From Candidatus Woesearchaeota archaeon (GTDB taxonomy: Archaea; Nanobdellota; Nanobdellia; Woesearchaeales; ARS49), in the NCBI GenBank assembly GCA_016203425.1, contig JACQMU010000155.1:1-11131 (forward strand): DNA of 11,131 nucleotides, given 5' to 3'. Each line of letters begins with the position of its first letter. Position 1 is the stretch's first letter. The notes under the pieces are model-generated. The model did no database searches, was not told where the DNA came from, and worked only from the letters and a program-made list of their open reading frames with translations. Below, piece after piece: positions 8,453-11,131 of the stretch. The translations under genes were made by a program, and so were the position numbers.

Positions 8453-8502
8453 AAAGTAACCACTTAATAGTTACGACTTTTTTGGGTTTAAAGAGAAAGC
8501 GA

Positions 8503-8510
8503 TTTATAAA
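8503..8510 (-). promoter_or_regulatory. TATA box of the minus-strand operon
   Basis: TTTATAAA is an archaeal box A. With the usual ~25-27 nt spacing, transcription would start near 8480, giving a leader of about 40 nt that contains the AGGAGG site. This fits it as the promoter of the hypothetical/AAA+/VWA/GNAT operon. Confidence 0.6.
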
Positions 8511-8530
8511 CCTTCACTTTTTGGAATGTG

Positions 8531-8593
8531 TCAGAAACTGCTCTCGACGCACACTATTGACTTCAGTCTGTAGAAAGGACGAGCAGTTTCTGA
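8531..8593. repeat. 13-bp perfect inverted repeat, first module of hairpin element copy A
   Basis: The arm TCAGAAACTGCTC (8531-8543) and its exact complement GAGCAGTTTCTGA (8581-8593) enclose 37 nt. It stands upstream of the core described next, in the same place as the 10-15-bp hairpin at 9400-9462 in copy B. The arm sequences differ between the copies, but pairing is kept in both. Confidence 0.85.
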
Positions 8594-8599
8594 GCACGC

Positions 8600-8673
8600 T
8601 CAAGAACCACGTGCTGTTAAATATACACGTCGTGATCACTTCACGCCACCTTGCTTTAGCAGGTGGTTCTTGA
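8600..8673. repeat. hairpin element copy A, core
   Basis: Outer arms TCAAGAACCAC (8600-8610) and GTGGTTCTTGA (8663-8673) are perfectly complementary over 11 bp. Inside are CGTGA/TCACG (8631-8645) and CCACC-T-TGCT / AGCA-GGTGG (8646-8666). This last hairpin uses bases of the outer right arm, so the two folds exclude each other. Much of this core recurs at 9527-9683, including ATCACTTCAC, CCACCTTGC and TTTAGCAGGTGGTTCTTGAC. No protein is encoded here. It could be an RNA structure or a palindromic DNA repeat. Confidence 0.8.
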
Positions 8674-8683
8674 CGGCTAAACA

Positions 8684-8691
8684 TTTATAAC
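8684..8691 (+). promoter_or_regulatory. TATA box upstream of the tRNA-Pro half-copy
   Basis: TTTATAAC is centred about 30 nt before the tRNA-Pro 5' half-copy at 8718. No comparable box lies 25-30 nt before the complete tRNA at 8823. The transcript making tRNA-Pro probably begins in front of the half-copy and carries both. Confidence 0.55.
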
Positions 8692-8717
8692 ACCACAAAA
8701 ATAAACAATCTTTCAAC

Positions 8718-8749
8718 GGGGCCGTGGTCCAGCCTGGTAAGCCTCACCC
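8718..8749 (+). pseudogene. partial tRNA-Pro: duplicate of the 5' 32 nt only
   Basis: This stretch matches the first 32 nt of the complete tRNA-Pro 105 bp downstream at 30 of 32 positions. It covers the acceptor 5' strand GGGGCCG, the D arm and the 5' anticodon strand CACCC, and homology stops there. The two differences fall in the 3' strand of the D stem, weakening the U11-A24 pair. No anticodon, T arm or acceptor 3' strand follows, so it cannot make a tRNA on its own. It could be a remnant, a mark of site-specific insertion, or (less likely) a split-tRNA 5' half. Confidence 0.8.
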
Positions 8750-8750
8750 A

Positions 8751-8801
8751 CAAACTTTATTAAAGTTTGATCAAAGAAGGGTACCGTTTGCTGCGCAAAC
8801 G
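8751..8801. repeat. two hairpins between the tRNA-Pro half-copy and the full gene
   Basis: CAAACTTT-ATT-AAAGTTTG (8751-8769) is an 8-bp hairpin starting one base after the half-copy ends. CGTTTGC-TGC-GCAAACG (8785-8801) is a 7-bp hairpin with CTGCG at its tip. The arms CAAAC and GTTTG occur in both, in opposite order. Confidence 0.75.
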
Positions 8802-8822
8802 ATACAAAAGATGACCAACGAA

Positions 8823-8895
8823 GGGGCCGTGGTCCAGCCTGGTAAGATTCACCCTTGGGGTGGGTGCGACCCGAGTTCGAATCTCGGCGGTCCCA
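8823..8895 (+). tRNA. tRNA-Pro (anticodon GGG)
   Basis: A complete 73-nt cloverleaf. The acceptor GGGGCCG pairs with CGGTCCC (one G-U). The D arm follows U8-G9, and the anticodon stem is CACCC/GGGTG around TTGGGGT, giving anticodon GGG. The T arm is CCGAG-TTCGAAT-CTCGG and the discriminator is A73. There is no intron and CCA is not encoded. A T-rich stretch about 10-30 nt downstream can serve as terminator. It decodes CCC and CCU proline codons. Confidence 0.95.
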
Positions 8896-8903
8896 TTAAA
8901 CAA

Positions 8904-8914
8904 GTTTTAAAAAG
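8904..8914 (+). promoter_or_regulatory. TATA-like box of the Nudix gene
   Basis: GTTTTAAAAAG is centred about 29 nt before the Nudix ATG at 8938, and no ribosome-binding site precedes that ATG. This spacing fits a leaderless transcript starting at or next to the ATG. Confidence 0.45.
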
Positions 8915-8937
8915 CGTTTTGTATTTTCATAGATTTC

Positions 8938-9528
8938 ATGAACACTTCAACTATGGAATTTGCAGACCTCGCGTGTGCAATTATTTTTAACTCATTTGGA
9001 GAAATTTTACTGCAAAAAAAAGATGTCAGATATTGGCGATATCCTGGCATTTGGAGTTTTTTTGGAGGAGCCATTGAAAATGGCGAAACACCAAAAGAAG
9101 CAGTCATCAGAGAACTTCAAGAAGAATTAGGCATTACATTTGAAGACCTGAAATTGTTTAATGTCTGCGAATATGAAGACCTACACCCACAACAAACCAG
9201 ACGTGGAAAACTTTTTACTTTTGTTGCACGCCATGACGGAAAACAAACTGATATCAGATTAAATGAAGGTGCAGGATTTGCATTTTTTTCACGAGAAGAA
9301 GTACTTTCTTTACACATGATTCCTTACACTAAAAAATTAGTTCTTGATTCCTACAACGAAATTGAAAAATGTGGCAGTGTGGATAAATTTGTTCAGACAT
9401 CGGAAATCCATTGCGTGGAATCCACTTGCTTGAGCTCGTTGAAGGAGCGCAAGGATTTCCGAGGTGCTCAAGTCTCTCAAACGCCAACCGTTTGTGAGAA
9501 CTTACGAATCTTTGAGATTCGAAAGTAA
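8938..9528 (+). CDS. Nudix hydrolase with a repeat-encoded C-terminal tail
   Basis: This 196-residue ORF has a perfect Nudix box, G44-x5-E50-x7-R58-E59-L-Q-E62-E63-L-G65-I. It lies in a MutT-like frame: LACAIIFNSFGEILLQKKD (11-29), then WRYPGIWSFFGG (33-44), and a later strand with FTFVARHDG (93-101). It should hydrolyse a nucleoside diphosphate linked to another moiety using divalent metal. The substrate is not predictable, though the RYWRYPGIWSFFGG segment is like that of general NTP pyrophosphohydrolases. Typical members end near residue 145-150. Residues 155-196 are encoded by hairpin element copy B, which begins at 9400, so the tail is probably acquired or the true 3' end was replaced. 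The start at 8938 suits a leaderless mRNA; an in-frame ATG at 8953 is the alternative. Confidence 0.88.
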   Translation: MNTSTMEFADLACAIIFNSFGEILLQKKDVRYWRYPGIWSFFGGAIENGETPKEAVIRELQEELGITFEDLKLFNVCEYEDLHPQQTRRGKLFTFVARHDGKQTDIRLNEGAGFAFFSREEVLSLHMIPYTKKLVLDSYNEIEKCGSVDKFVQTSEIHCVESTCLSSLKERKDFRGAQVSQTPTVCENLRIFEIRK

Positions 9529-9683
9529 CCACATGCTCTTTAGTATTGTGTCTCGTTATCACTTCACACCACCTTGCCCTCTCGAAATCCTGACAGATGC
9601 ATATCGAGGATTTCGTGAGGTGCTCGATAATCGCTTGTTAATATGTCAACTGCGATTATCGACATTTAGCAGGTGGTTCTTGA
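9400..9683. repeat. hairpin element copy B (expanded, nested hairpins)
   Basis: The first module is TCGGAAATCC (9400-9409) with GGATTTCCGA (9453-9462), continued after a bulge by TTGCG/CGCAA. GTGCTCAAG follows. Next come two extra hairpins absent from copy A: CAAACG/CGTTTG (9478-9494, extendable past one mismatch) and CGAATCT-TTG-AGATTCG (9505-9521). The core then runs AACCAC (9527-9532) to GTGGTTCTTGA (9673-9683). Inside the core, between TTGC and TTTAGC, are about 87 nt absent from copy A. These contain CGAAATCC/GGATTTCG and the perfect 11-bp TCGATAATCGC/GCGATTATCGA (9624-9661). Its left part overlaps the Nudix reading frame. Confidence 0.8.
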
Positions 9684-9689
9684 CATGCT

Positions 9690-9775
9690 GCGAGAATAAT
9701 CACCACCACAGTAACCTTGACGAATTCTTTAAAGTGTTGAAAGAACGAGAAGCTCAATCAGGCAGAAAGTTTTAA
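9690..9775 (+). other. possible gene remnant (C-terminus-like reading frame)
   Basis: Right after copy B, an open frame ends at TAA 9773-9775 with a helical, protein-like sequence, NLDEFFKVLKEREAQSGRKF. No start or ribosome-binding site belongs to it; upstream the frame is only repeat DNA. It may be the displaced 3' end of the Nudix gene or of a lost gene, or it may be chance. Confidence 0.25.
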
Positions 9776-9779
9776 ATAA

Positions 9780-9860
9780 CACGAACTCGTTGCTCGTGGC
9801 TATCTCAATCGCAGCAAGCTGCGGAGTATTACACCACTCGCTTCAACACGCGAGTTCGTG
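9780..9860. repeat. nested inverted repeat with CAAG-loop hairpin (unit 1)
   Basis: Outer arms CACGAACTCG (9780-9789) and CGAGTTCGTG (9851-9860) pair perfectly over 10 bp. Inside is CGCAG-CAAG-CTGCG (9810-9823), followed by GAGTATTACACC. The loop and right flank match unit 2 at 9863-9916, while the stems differ. Confidence 0.8.
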
Positions 9861-9862
9861 AG

Positions 9863-9916
9863 ATCTTGAAATTGAGACCATAGCAAGCTATGGAGTATTC
9901 AACCCAATTTCAAGAT
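9863..9916. repeat. nested inverted repeat with CAAG-loop hairpin (unit 2)
   Basis: Outer arms ATCTTGAAATTG (9863-9874) and CAATTTCAAGAT (9905-9916) pair perfectly over 12 bp. Inside is CCATAG-CAAG-CTATGG (9878-9893), followed by AGTATTCAACC. It ends 26 nt before the next ATG, and its right arm runs into an AGATAAAA stretch that could be that gene's TATA element, so the fold might influence that promoter. Confidence 0.8.
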
Positions 9917-9942
9917 AAAAACAATTAACAATTCTATCCAGC

Positions 9943-10575
9943 ATGCCTGACAAAAGAACTGGAAACTGGGATTTTGCAAACTTCTTCCAAAGACTGCCTG
10001 AACCTACAGAAGCAGAAAAACAAGCATACGCATACCACAAAATAATGTCGAACACACACAAACCACAACAACAAAAAGAACAACCAATCGACGAACAGAT
10101 TTCTGCATTAACTGAAGACGAACGCAATGGCATGATAACATTTGAAGACAGAAAACTATGTTTAACTTACAGCCCATTTGCTCCAGAACCAACCACACCA
10201 ACACAGTTATTCTCTCGGTACAAAAAGTTTGAAACAACAGAACAAAGATTAATGATGGTCAAACACCGCAGAAAACTCGAGGAAACACTGGCAAAAACAT
10301 ACATTGCAACCAACTTTGTAATAAATTCTTTTGTACCTGGAGTTTTAGTTACAGAAAACAGCGAAATATGCGTCGCAGCAATCGGAGTTATTAACTTTTC
10401 AGCCAAAGAAAAAATAGAAGCAGTTCTTTTCAGGCCAACACAAAAAAGCAAAACCACAGCATACCAAATCAACAACAAAACACTTGACAAAATAATAGGC
10501 GCAGGATTCCTCTACGCAACAAACACTGAAGAAATAAAGATTTATGAAATCAAAAAGTGTTTGGCAATAGAATGA
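9943..10575 (+). CDS. hypothetical protein
   Basis: I do not recognise this 210-residue protein. It is hydrophilic, with no signal peptide or clear membrane helix. The N-terminal half is polar and Gln/Pro/Glu-rich (KPQQQKEQPIDEQ, 40-52). A predicted helix spans about 98-120 (TTEQRLMMVKHRRKLEETLAKTY). A strand-rich C-terminal half follows: IATNFVINSFVPGVLVTEN (121-139), EICVAAIGVINFS (141-153) and IEAVLFRP (158-165). The last ~35 residues alternate a helix and a strand (TLDKIIGAGFLYATN, EIKIYEIKKCLAIE). There is no ribosome-binding site. An AGATAAAAAC stretch centred about 26 nt upstream suggests a leaderless mRNA. It stands alone between repeat clusters, and nothing around it suggests a role. 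Coding is supported by length and protein-like composition. Confidence 0.75.
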   Translation: MPDKRTGNWDFANFFQRLPEPTEAEKQAYAYHKIMSNTHKPQQQKEQPIDEQISALTEDERNGMITFEDRKLCLTYSPFAPEPTTPTQLFSRYKKFETTEQRLMMVKHRRKLEETLAKTYIATNFVINSFVPGVLVTENSEICVAAIGVINFSAKEKIEAVLFRPTQKSKTTAYQINNKTLDKIIGAGFLYATNTEEIKIYEIKKCLAIE

Positions 10576-10739
10576 GACGACAAACGTTATCTTTAAATAG
10601 TTCTTCAACTTATAATGCAATCATGAACACACAACGAGTTGGTTATCTTCATTGTGAATTTAGATAGTTCTAACTCTTTATTCGTTGGTGGTTGTATTCA
10701 TAACCAATACAAATAATTCTTTCAATACTAACTTTTACT
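10576..10739 (+). other. intergenic stretch with a TATA box and a 14-codon ORF
   Basis: Together with the repeat at 10740-10837 this makes about 295 bases without a clear gene. TTTAAATA (10592-10599) is centred about 27 nt before an ATG at 10623 that opens a 14-codon frame, MNTQRVGYLHCEFR, ending at TAG 10665-10667. That is the exact geometry of a leaderless archaeal gene. The ORF is too short to trust and may be the stub of a decayed gene. A weak GGTTAT (10641-10646) / ATAACC (10700-10705) inverted repeat follows. Confidence 0.3.
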
Positions 10740-10837
10740 CCGCTGTTGCCGCGTGGCGAGGCAGGGGTTGTCCATTCGGGATGCCGAGTAGGATTTTGAA
10801 CGCAGTGAAAAATCCGTCGCGCTGGCAACAACAGCGG
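10740..10837. repeat. nested inverted repeat with a GAACGCAGTG loop
   Basis: Outer arms CCGCTGTTG (10740-10748) and CAACAGCGG (10829-10837) pair perfectly, and GCC/GGC extends the stem past a short bulge. Inside, GGATTTT (10791-10797) pairs with AAAATCC (10809-10815) around GAACGCAGTGA. On the minus strand the loop reads CACTGCGTTC, the same apical sequence as the plus-strand hairpin in the tRNA-His spacer. The region is GC-richer than its surroundings. Confidence 0.75.
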
Positions 10838-10870
10838 CAAAAACTAATTCTTGACAACAATTTTAATTCT

Positions 10871-10902
10871 GGCGATTGTGGTGTAGCGGTAGGCATACAA
10901 GC
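10871..10902 (+). pseudogene. partial tRNA-His: duplicate of the 5' ~32 nt only
   Basis: This repeats the complete tRNA-His 133 bp downstream from G-1 to the end of the 5' anticodon strand CAAGC, with two substitutions and one inserted G in the D loop/arm. The D-stem pairs G10-U25, U11-A24, G12-C23 and U13-G22 can all still form. Homology then stops, with no anticodon or 3' half. It ends at the same structural position as the tRNA-Pro half-copy. Confidence 0.8.
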
Positions 10903-10911
10903 AAATGACAC

Positions 10912-10961
10912 GTATTTGGAACGTACTAGTAAGAGGGTATTTCCACTGCGTTCCAATACCC
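10912..10961. repeat. two mutually exclusive hairpins in the tRNA-His spacer
   Basis: GTATTTGGAACG (10912-10923) pairs with CGTTCCAATAC (10949-10959), 11 bp with one bulged T. Alternatively GGGTATT (10935-10941) pairs with AATACCC (10955-10961), leaving CACTGCGTTC in the loop. The right arms overlap, so only one can form at a time. Confidence 0.75.
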
Positions 10962-11003
10962 TATTTCCGTTAATTGATAACATTCTAAAATGCACTTATT
11001 TCT

Positions 11004-11075
11004 GGCGATTGTGGTGTAGCGGCAGCATTCAAGCCTGTGGAGCTTGCAGCCCGAGTTCAACTCTCGGCAATCGCC
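11004..11075 (+). tRNA. tRNA-His (anticodon GUG)
   Basis: The acceptor GCGATTG (11005-11011) pairs perfectly with CAATCGC (11068-11074). G-1 is encoded at 11004 opposite C73 at 11075, the identity element of histidyl-tRNA synthetase. U8-G9 are followed by a four-pair D stem. The anticodon stem is CAAGC/GCTTG around CTGTGGA, anticodon GTG. The T arm is CCGAG-TTCAACT-CTCGG. There is no intron; one C follows C73 but CCA is not encoded. A weak TTGATAAC at about 10974-10981 is 27 nt upstream and may be its box A. Confidence 0.95.
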
Positions 11076-11088
11076 CTTCAAAGCAAAC

Positions 11089-11112
11089 TATATAAACCAA
11101 CCAGACAGGAGG
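11089..11112 (+). promoter_or_regulatory. TATA box and Shine-Dalgarno of the right-edge gene
   Basis: TATATAAA (11089-11096) and AGGAGG (11107-11112) both precede the ATG at 11120. The ribosome-binding site is 7 nt from the ATG. The TATA box is only ~27 nt from it, so initiation at normal spacing would begin past the ribosome-binding site. Either the message comes from upstream (perhaps with tRNA-His) and uses the AGGAGG, or a leaderless form also exists. Confidence 0.55.
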
Positions 11113-11119
11113 AATAACT

Positions 11120-11131
11120 ATGACGCAATTC
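11120..11131 (+). CDS. start of a gene cut by the window edge
   Basis: Only the first four codons (M-T-Q-F) are present, too few to assign a product. The start is well supported by AGGAGG at 7-nt spacing, the same arrangement as the hypothetical gene at 7945-8439. Confidence 0.6.

Follow-up and report, generated by a model that had tools for sequence, protein, structure and literature searches.

Partial tRNA copies and short gene-less inserts beside intact tRNA genes in an archaeal metagenome-assembled genome

Introduction

Transfer RNA genes have a classic role as entry sites of mobile DNA, and tRNA loops are also sites of archaeal introns. Casposons make short target duplications at tRNA 3' ends, and Williams is said to have described in 2002 partial tRNA genes left by mobile-element integration. 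The published systems below are cited from excerpts of the papers concerned. Partial tRNA copies resulting from mobile-element integration are described as common, and six further archaeal integration cases involve elements of about 9-23 kb (PMC9897764). In the papers compared, integrated elements are kilobases long (e.g., PMC9897764, PMC3293823). Archaeal integrases use tRNA genes; cleavage by the SSV1 enzyme was seen at the anticodon-loop borders and has been extrapolated to the loops for other integrases, and pTN3-like integrases use the tRNA 5' half (PMC8371274). For a tRNA-Thr fragment in Caldiarchaeum, intron gain together with an inserted element was proposed as the cause (Sugahara 2012, PMC3293823). 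Transposition of tRNA introns is on record for the Thermoproteales (Fujishima 2010, as described in PMC4033280).

The hallmark of an integrated element, a partial copy opposite an intact tRNA with an insert between them, is present at tRNA-His and tRNA-Pro in the window analyzed here (the whole stretch of DNA under study, 11,131 nt). Complete genes for both tRNAs are present, unlike in a split tRNA.

Materials and methods

The window is contig C87 of the host genome (G000), a metagenome-assembled genome (MAG) of 168 contigs and 865 kb that is 82.5% complete. C-numbers denote contigs of this genome, L-numbers denote loci, and G003 is the genome of a family relative. The tRNA set of the host genome (n = 25) consisted of 21 genes above the Rfam cut-off plus Thr, a second Ser (C124), Asp, and Lys (predicted introns). 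For the copy test, the first and last 36 nt of each tRNA were aligned locally to its own flanks of up to 300 nt; eight flanks were shorter than this, ending with the contig or the sequence piece. The null consisted of 40 block shuffles of each flank for the 25 tRNAs, and the highest score overall was 14.0. Homologues of the inserts were searched for in 740,791 bases. A scan for disrupted tRNAs in the host genome gave 95 matches, of which the top 19 were retained and the remainder judged noise by eye. The matrix for TATA-like boxes was built from host tRNAs without a 5' copy.

For the relatives, 62 tRNAs (40 + 22) at loci from the same family or order were used; one gene was counted twice, and a few were without a flank. 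A genome collection was searched for the pattern of a tRNA T loop, an inverted T loop, and a direct T loop, which gave at least 120 stretches, with 80 loci listed. The same kind of scan of viral contigs gave 104 stretches, 80 of which were turned into loci, with 26 loci listed.

Results

The intact tRNA-His(GTG) gene is predicted at 11005-11076 (+ strand), with G-1 at 11004, and its 3' end lies just 55 nt short of the contig end. Direct reading and repeat finding place a copy of its 5' half, positions -1 to 31 (GGCGATTGTGGTGTAGCGGTAGGCATACAAGC), at 10871-10902 (+), with a score of 21.5 against the shuffle maximum of 14.0. The match runs from G-1 to C31, the end of the 5' anticodon-stem strand. 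Past this breakpoint the copy reads AAATGAC and the gene CTGTGGA, so that the overlap in the anticodon loop is not identical. When aligned, copy and gene differ three times (C20 to T, an extra D-loop G, and T26 to A), and because all three differences sit at unpaired positions, the four D-stem pairs are intact in the copy. The insert between copy and gene (10903-11004, + strand, 102 nt) ends with the G-1 of the intact gene. Its first part, 10903-10969, matches a dispersed repeat at C98:6381-6448 with 78% identity over 68 nt, and this homology begins at the first base past the breakpoint; no tRNA is predicted on C98. The unit as a whole (10871-11004) had no BLAST match among phage and plasmid records. 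Directly upstream of the copy lies an unstranded MITE-like palindromic repeat of ~100 nt at 10741-10845 (ends set by eye, query 10730-10862), which has the ends CCGCTGTTGCC and GGCAACAACAGCGG and matches on 9 other contigs.

At the second locus, the intact tRNA-Pro(GGG) gene is predicted at 8823-8895 (+), and the copy of its positions 1-31 occupies 8718-8749 (+; 32 nt, 94% identity, score 27.0). The copy ends at position 31 like that of tRNA-His, and one of its D-stem pairs is broken. Past the breakpoint the copy reads ACAAACT and the gene TTGGGGT, again with an anticodon-loop overlap that is not identical. The insert (8750-8822, + strand, 73 nt) contains two perfect stem-loops, and a search of 740,791 bases gave no homologue of it. 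A preliminary description of the window had reported the upstream copy of the tRNA-His 5' end (~32 nt, stopping at 31), its preserved D-stem pairs, and the same design at an unrelated tRNA, here tRNA-Pro, all of which were found as described. Its statement that hairpins follow the copies holds for the Pro insert, which folds better than its shuffles (z = -3.95), and hardly for the His insert (z = -1.32). The two inserts have no sequence in common.

Compared with Rfam at E up to 5, the stretch 8500-11131 gave just the two tRNAs above the curated cut-off; five further matches (E 1.5 to 4.9) were regarded as chance. A dispersed hairpin repeat occurs at 8630-8674 and 9553-9684, once uninterrupted and once split by an insertion. 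In the interrupted repeat, a double hairpin of ~87 nt is inserted at the loop (CCACCTTGC/TTTAGCAGGTGG); relatives lie at C52 and C54.

Across the host genome, upstream 5' copies scored above 14.0 at 5 of the 25 tRNAs (Ser-GCT 28.5, Pro 27.0, His 21.5, Ile 15.5, and Arg-CCG 15.0) and downstream 3' copies at 3 of 25 (Arg-TCT 17, Arg-GCG 17, and Trp 16). Four weaker cases exceeded their own shuffles only: Gly 13.5, Arg-TCG 13, the 3' copy of Ser-GCT 12, and the 5' copy of Glu 10. Values for Val-TAC and Gly slightly over their own shuffles were set aside as two neighboring complete tRNAs matching one another. Significant 5' copies were found upstream only and significant 3' copies downstream only; Ser-GCT (13.0) and Arg-CCG (12.5) alone also have 3' matches on the upstream side, at weaker scores. 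At these two tRNAs (L016 on C124 and L021 on C23), a complete tRNA is nested in the T loop of another one of its kind that is disrupted, and the outer tRNA-Arg at L021 retains its acceptor, anticodon, and T stems. Breakpoints fall at 15/16 in the D loop (Ile, Glu) and at 31/32 at the start of the anticodon loop (His, Pro); the 3' copies begin within the T loop or right behind it, and this loop is also where the nested Ser-GCT and Arg-CCG are interrupted. The duplications are 15 or 31-32 nt long for 5' copies and 14-24 nt for 3' copies. Relative to their own tRNAs, the 5' copies carry three changes at His, two each at Pro and Glu, and none at Ile. Contigs C19, C71, C75, C123, and C163 have ends that coincide with or lie close to tRNAs or tRNA-end repeats, and tRNA-associated repeats may be a cause of assembly breaks in this genome.

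The inserts are about 20-130 bp long and contain no genes. Those at Arg-GCG and Arg-TCT are 93-94% identical over 53-55 nt, and the copies beside them are alike at 13 of 17 positions, each fully equal to the end of its own tRNA. The inserts at Ile (5' copy) and Arg-TCG (3' copy) are 88% identical over 41 nt, and a 16-nt piece of the Glu insert, which adjoins a 5' copy, is common to both (E 0.03). The Gly-GCC insert is shared with a tandem repeat that opens C19, with units that close in a 3' end like that of tRNA-Gly. On the Woesearchaeota contig L271, an identical unit core adjoins both tRNA-Gln-TTG and tRNA-Gln-CTG, and three of three 20-nt ends at each gene carry the acceptor strand of that gene. 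Near-identical inserts thus stand at different tRNAs with each copy matching its own tRNA, as target duplications would. This is the best evidence that the copies may derive from the target tRNA of the host and not from the element; the comparison was made on 3' copies, His and Pro having one copy each. Dispersed homologues exist for the His (C98), Arg-GCG/Arg-TCT, Ile/Arg-TCG, and Gly inserts, and several besides that of Pro have none in the bases searched.

Seven inserts were folded as single-stranded DNA, a set that omitted those of Glu, Arg-TCG, Ser, and Arg-CCG. Folding was better than for shuffles at Arg-GCG (z = -5.7), Arg-TCT (-4.4), Pro, and Trp (-3.7), and there was no clear gain at His, Gly (-0.4), or Ile (+0.3). 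The motif CACGAAA..TTTCGAGA occurs 4 times in the host sequence versus 0 or 1 times in 10 shuffled sets; a second motif with a stem rule has no occurrence there. Several 3'-unit inserts contain an inverted T-arm. Over 48 units, its agreement with the tRNA of the same unit beyond the motif is 3.96 of 9 positions versus 3.25, and none of 2,000 permutations was as high (observed 190, permutation maximum 189). The covariation is real but weak, and the reading proposed below does not rely on it.

TATA-like boxes score higher before the copy than before the intact gene at Glu (11.1 vs 1.5) and Ile (7.9 vs -0.5) and, more weakly but in the same direction, at Arg-CCG (3.2 vs -2.1), Ser-GCT (4.5 vs 3.0), and Pro (-0.8 vs -3.5). 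The weak Pro box, ATTTATAAC at 8683-8691 (+), lies 35 nt before the copy, and no comparable box lies ahead of the intact tRNA-Pro. A box upstream of the copy is as predicted by insertion behind a promoter. Because the box lies ahead of the copy, the Glu and Ile tRNAs are probably transcribed through it, as perhaps is the Pro tRNA. An AT-rich stretch upstream of the intact Ile gene is a possible alternative promoter. tRNA-His is off this pattern (-7.2 before the copy, -1.1 before the intact gene), and the MITE-like repeat may have displaced its promoter. A poor box is not peculiar to copy-bearing loci, since tRNA-Lys, which has no 5' copy, scores -1.2.

In the relatives, downstream 3' copies with a score of 13 or more were found at 7 of the 62 tRNAs (Thr at L173, Lys at L190, Arg at L191, Ala at L200, Met at L201, Gln at L212, and Asp at L214) and 5' copies at none. 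The scores at L173, L190, and L200 are 14.0, no higher than the top shuffle in the host genome; matches at L201 between neighboring predicted tRNAs and weak matches under 13 were excluded from this count. Given 0/62 against 7/62, 5' halves are the rarer form, concentrated in the host genome. There are arrays of four 3' ends in tandem at L173 (the end of the gene itself included) and of three at L212. The tRNA-Gln array at L212 in G003 reads the same by eye as that of L271, and the two may be the same genome. On account of this likeness the host genome is placed near the Woesearchaeota, and its predicted tRNA introns are the ground for regarding it as archaeal. No copy precedes tRNA-His in any of the five other loci with upstream sequence (L167, L169, L170, L178, and L213), a count that leaves aside L193, where the upstream sequence is missing. 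None was found at L168 of G003 either, a tRNA-His by similarity to the window that ARAGORN calls a tRNA-Asp with an intron.

The 80 loci listed from the genome collection contain 87 predicted tRNAs, 46 of which start a pattern match; none of the counts from these loci is a frequency. A downstream copy was scored at 42 of the 46, as expected from the selection, and at 18 of the remaining 41, mostly arrays matched one unit further on. Two of these 18 (L238) are probably neighboring tRNA-Ser genes, and five are stand-alone downstream copies (Thr at L239, Phe at L267, Ser-TGA at L268, Val at L280, and Phe at L288). Where no tRNA stands at the match, many of the listed loci are probably due to chance. 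The first copy usually begins 59-113 nt downstream of the tRNA, with one to four copies in succession. By record title, 44 of the 80 listed loci are haloarchaeal, and in many haloarchaeal 3' units the copy includes the T loop. Copies adjacent to tRNAs also occur among the listed loci in Woesearchaeota, Methanomassiliicoccales, Patescibacteria, Omnitrophota, and others and in one Actinomycetota and one Lachnospiraceae record. A 5' copy was scored at 2 of the 87 tRNAs, at L225 and at L238, the latter probably a neighboring tRNA. The clearest 5' copy outside the host genome is at L225 (5900-6600), where a Woesearchaeota tRNA-Leu(TAA) is preceded by a 5' copy that is interrupted and followed by two 3' units, the last of these itself split by a hairpin. 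Among the 26 viral-contig loci listed, 24 carry GGATTCGAAATCC, by eye a bacterial tRNA-Ser anticodon arm, and were rejected. L341 has a haloarchaeal-type unit next to tRNA-Glu, and L366 is of neither type.

At L062 (C37:9340-9617), tRNA-Asp has a T-loop insert and tRNA-Lys has a D-loop and a T-loop insert, all of which are probably non-canonical introns, as predicted. The predicted intron of a tRNA-Ser(TGA) at L022 (C16:1547-1569) holds a 23-nt hairpin that recurs without a difference in the Arg-CCG insert. That inserts become introns is a suggestive hint from this shared hairpin and no more.

Discussion

The 5' halves are read here as flank duplications from the insertion of small gene-less elements into tRNA genes, with a probability of roughly 0.57. 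An element would enter a tRNA gene at positions that form tRNA loops, and the insertion would duplicate a segment on one side, either the stretch between the 5' end and the D or anticodon loop or that between the T loop and the 3' end. One full tRNA would survive, and the partial copy would mark the far side of the insert. After a 5' duplication the promoter could remain ahead of the partial copy, and the intact tRNA would probably be matured normally from a longer precursor. A single class of element would lie behind both 5' and 3' copies, and the duplication would have arisen at the moment of insertion. The polarity of the copies, the inserts shared between tRNAs, the agreement of copies with their own tRNAs, and the homology of the His insert from the breakpoint onward favor insertion with duplication, as do the TATA-like boxes ahead of the copy at Glu and Ile (weakly at Pro) and the five tRNA-His genes of other genomes that have no copy. 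Several points weaken it: the 5' copies are inexact at His, Pro, and Glu, no homologue of the Pro insert was found in the bases searched, the His insert folds into no clear hairpin, and the promoter argument fails at His. That argument is weakened further by L225, where the intact tRNA-Leu has a TATA-like box of its own (by eye). The varying duplication lengths make a single enzyme look odd, and the inverted T-arm in many 3' units is not accounted for by simple target duplication.

The main rival, an unlikely one on this evidence, is that a virus or plasmid with a tyrosine integrase entered the tRNA, rebuilt the gene, and was then mostly lost, so that about 70-130 bp remain. Differences of the copy from the gene would be natural in that case, and in the excerpts archaeal integrases use tRNA genes, the pTN3-like group their 5' half (PMC8371274), and integration-derived partial copies are common (PMC9897764). 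The host genome has one PF00589 match, a 411-aa tyrosine recombinase (L106, C81:4329-5564) ~95 nt downstream of tRNA-Thr(GGT), which matches the NCBIfam archaeal XerA model below the cut-off. This sole match found in the 82.5% complete genome is on C81, and the His (102 bp) and Pro (73 bp) inserts hold no integrase gene; in G003, which has an array, PF00589 gave no match at E 0.001. With a crossover across the anticodon loop, both copies would be expected to retain positions 32-38, whereas identity stops at 31. The same small insert at different tRNAs is hard to obtain by independent deletions, as are arrays of several similar units. Under either reading, small elements or integrase scars, the halves are marks of integration.

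Decay of a tandem duplication of the tRNA gene, with the second half eroded or overwritten, is very improbable, although Ser-GCT and Arg-CCG are surrounded by nearly a whole second tRNA and the 5' copy of tRNA-Leu at L225 is longer and interrupted. The upstream flanks of His and Pro have no trace of a 3' half (6.0 and 5.5, shuffle maxima 9), the breaks at the loops are sharp, and inserts are common to different tRNAs. Each tRNA has an intact cloverleaf that needs no half, the His and Pro copies are without positions 32-37, and no 5' copy occurs at the 62 tRNAs of the relatives; a functional half is accordingly very improbable, be it one that acts as a leader, one that is joined in trans as part of a split tRNA, or one that serves as an alternative exon for the tRNA body after splicing. 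Consistent with such a half are the promoters upstream of the copy at Glu and Ile (weakly at Pro), the restriction of the changes in the His copy to unpaired positions, and the predicted D- and T-loop introns of the host genome. Chance similarity or misassembly at a short repeat is hardly credible: the data come from one MAG of 168 contigs with tRNA-His near a contig end, but the scores exceed every shuffle, and the 3' form is present in other assemblies, including the haloarchaeal "complete genome" records L254, L260, L267, L270, and L273.

The recurring process that the preliminary description had proposed, with integration at the anticodon loop among its options, is supported in the wider form of one acting at tRNA loops: several tRNAs are flanked, inserts are shared, and copies follow their own tRNA. 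The single architecture with a breakpoint at 31/32 proposed there had to be given up, as Ile and Glu stop at 15 and others break in or near the T loop. Further halves in this or related genomes with clustered breakpoints had been its proposed test; other host tRNAs do have copies, but 5' copies are absent from the 62 relatives' tRNAs and the breakpoints fall at several loops. The regulatory leader, its other option, gains from the probable transcription of Glu, Ile, and perhaps Pro through the copy, but no sign of regulation emerged, and His departs from the pattern.

A wider proposal is possible and still doubtful. Unrecognized gene-less, often hairpin-forming elements of ~50-130 bp may enter tRNA loops in archaea and some bacteria, duplicate the tRNA end each time, and build arrays of a tRNA 3' end, a spacer, and an inverted T-arm hairpin, with some inserts becoming introns. 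If true, such arrays would bear some likeness to an integron or a CRISPR array, with a tRNA as the anchor, and decay of the inner copies would turn inserts into D-, anticodon-, and T-loop introns. Inserts of this small size, able to duplicate tRNA ends and stack into arrays, would show tRNA-directed entry in a new light. Comparison of inserts, partial copies, and introns at each locus would also make the long-standing question of the origin of archaeal tRNA introns testable.

No recognized description of such units was found in the literature searched, which is weak evidence of absence, since subscription papers were mostly outside the search. Casposons differ in that the inserts here are gene-less and Cas1 (PF01867) was found in 1 of the 12 family genomes and is missing from the other 11, including the host genome (82.5% complete). 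The introns of the Thermoproteales are alike in that similar short sequences occur in several tRNA genes; they lie inside the tRNAs, whereas the inserts here adjoin intact genes (PMC4033280, in excerpt). As in the tRNA-Thr of Caldiarchaeum, a 5' fragment lies upstream of a complete gene, but that case, as excerpted, comprises 1.8 kb, a predicted recombinase gene, and one tRNA, compared with about 100 bp, no gene, and several tRNAs here (Sugahara 2012, PMC3293823). The loci resemble the pTN3-like sites in the duplicated tRNA 5' half with the intact gene downstream; they differ in that identity ends before the anticodon loop and that the insert holds no integrase, whereas the rebuilt tRNA at pTN3-like sites is expressed from the integrase promoter (PMC8371274, in the parts consulted). 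The integrated elements in the excerpts of PMC9897764 are kilobase-sized, whereas those here are about 20-130 bp, gene-less, found at either tRNA end, and sometimes arranged in arrays. A miniature variant of known tRNA-directed integration is the best reading of these loci.
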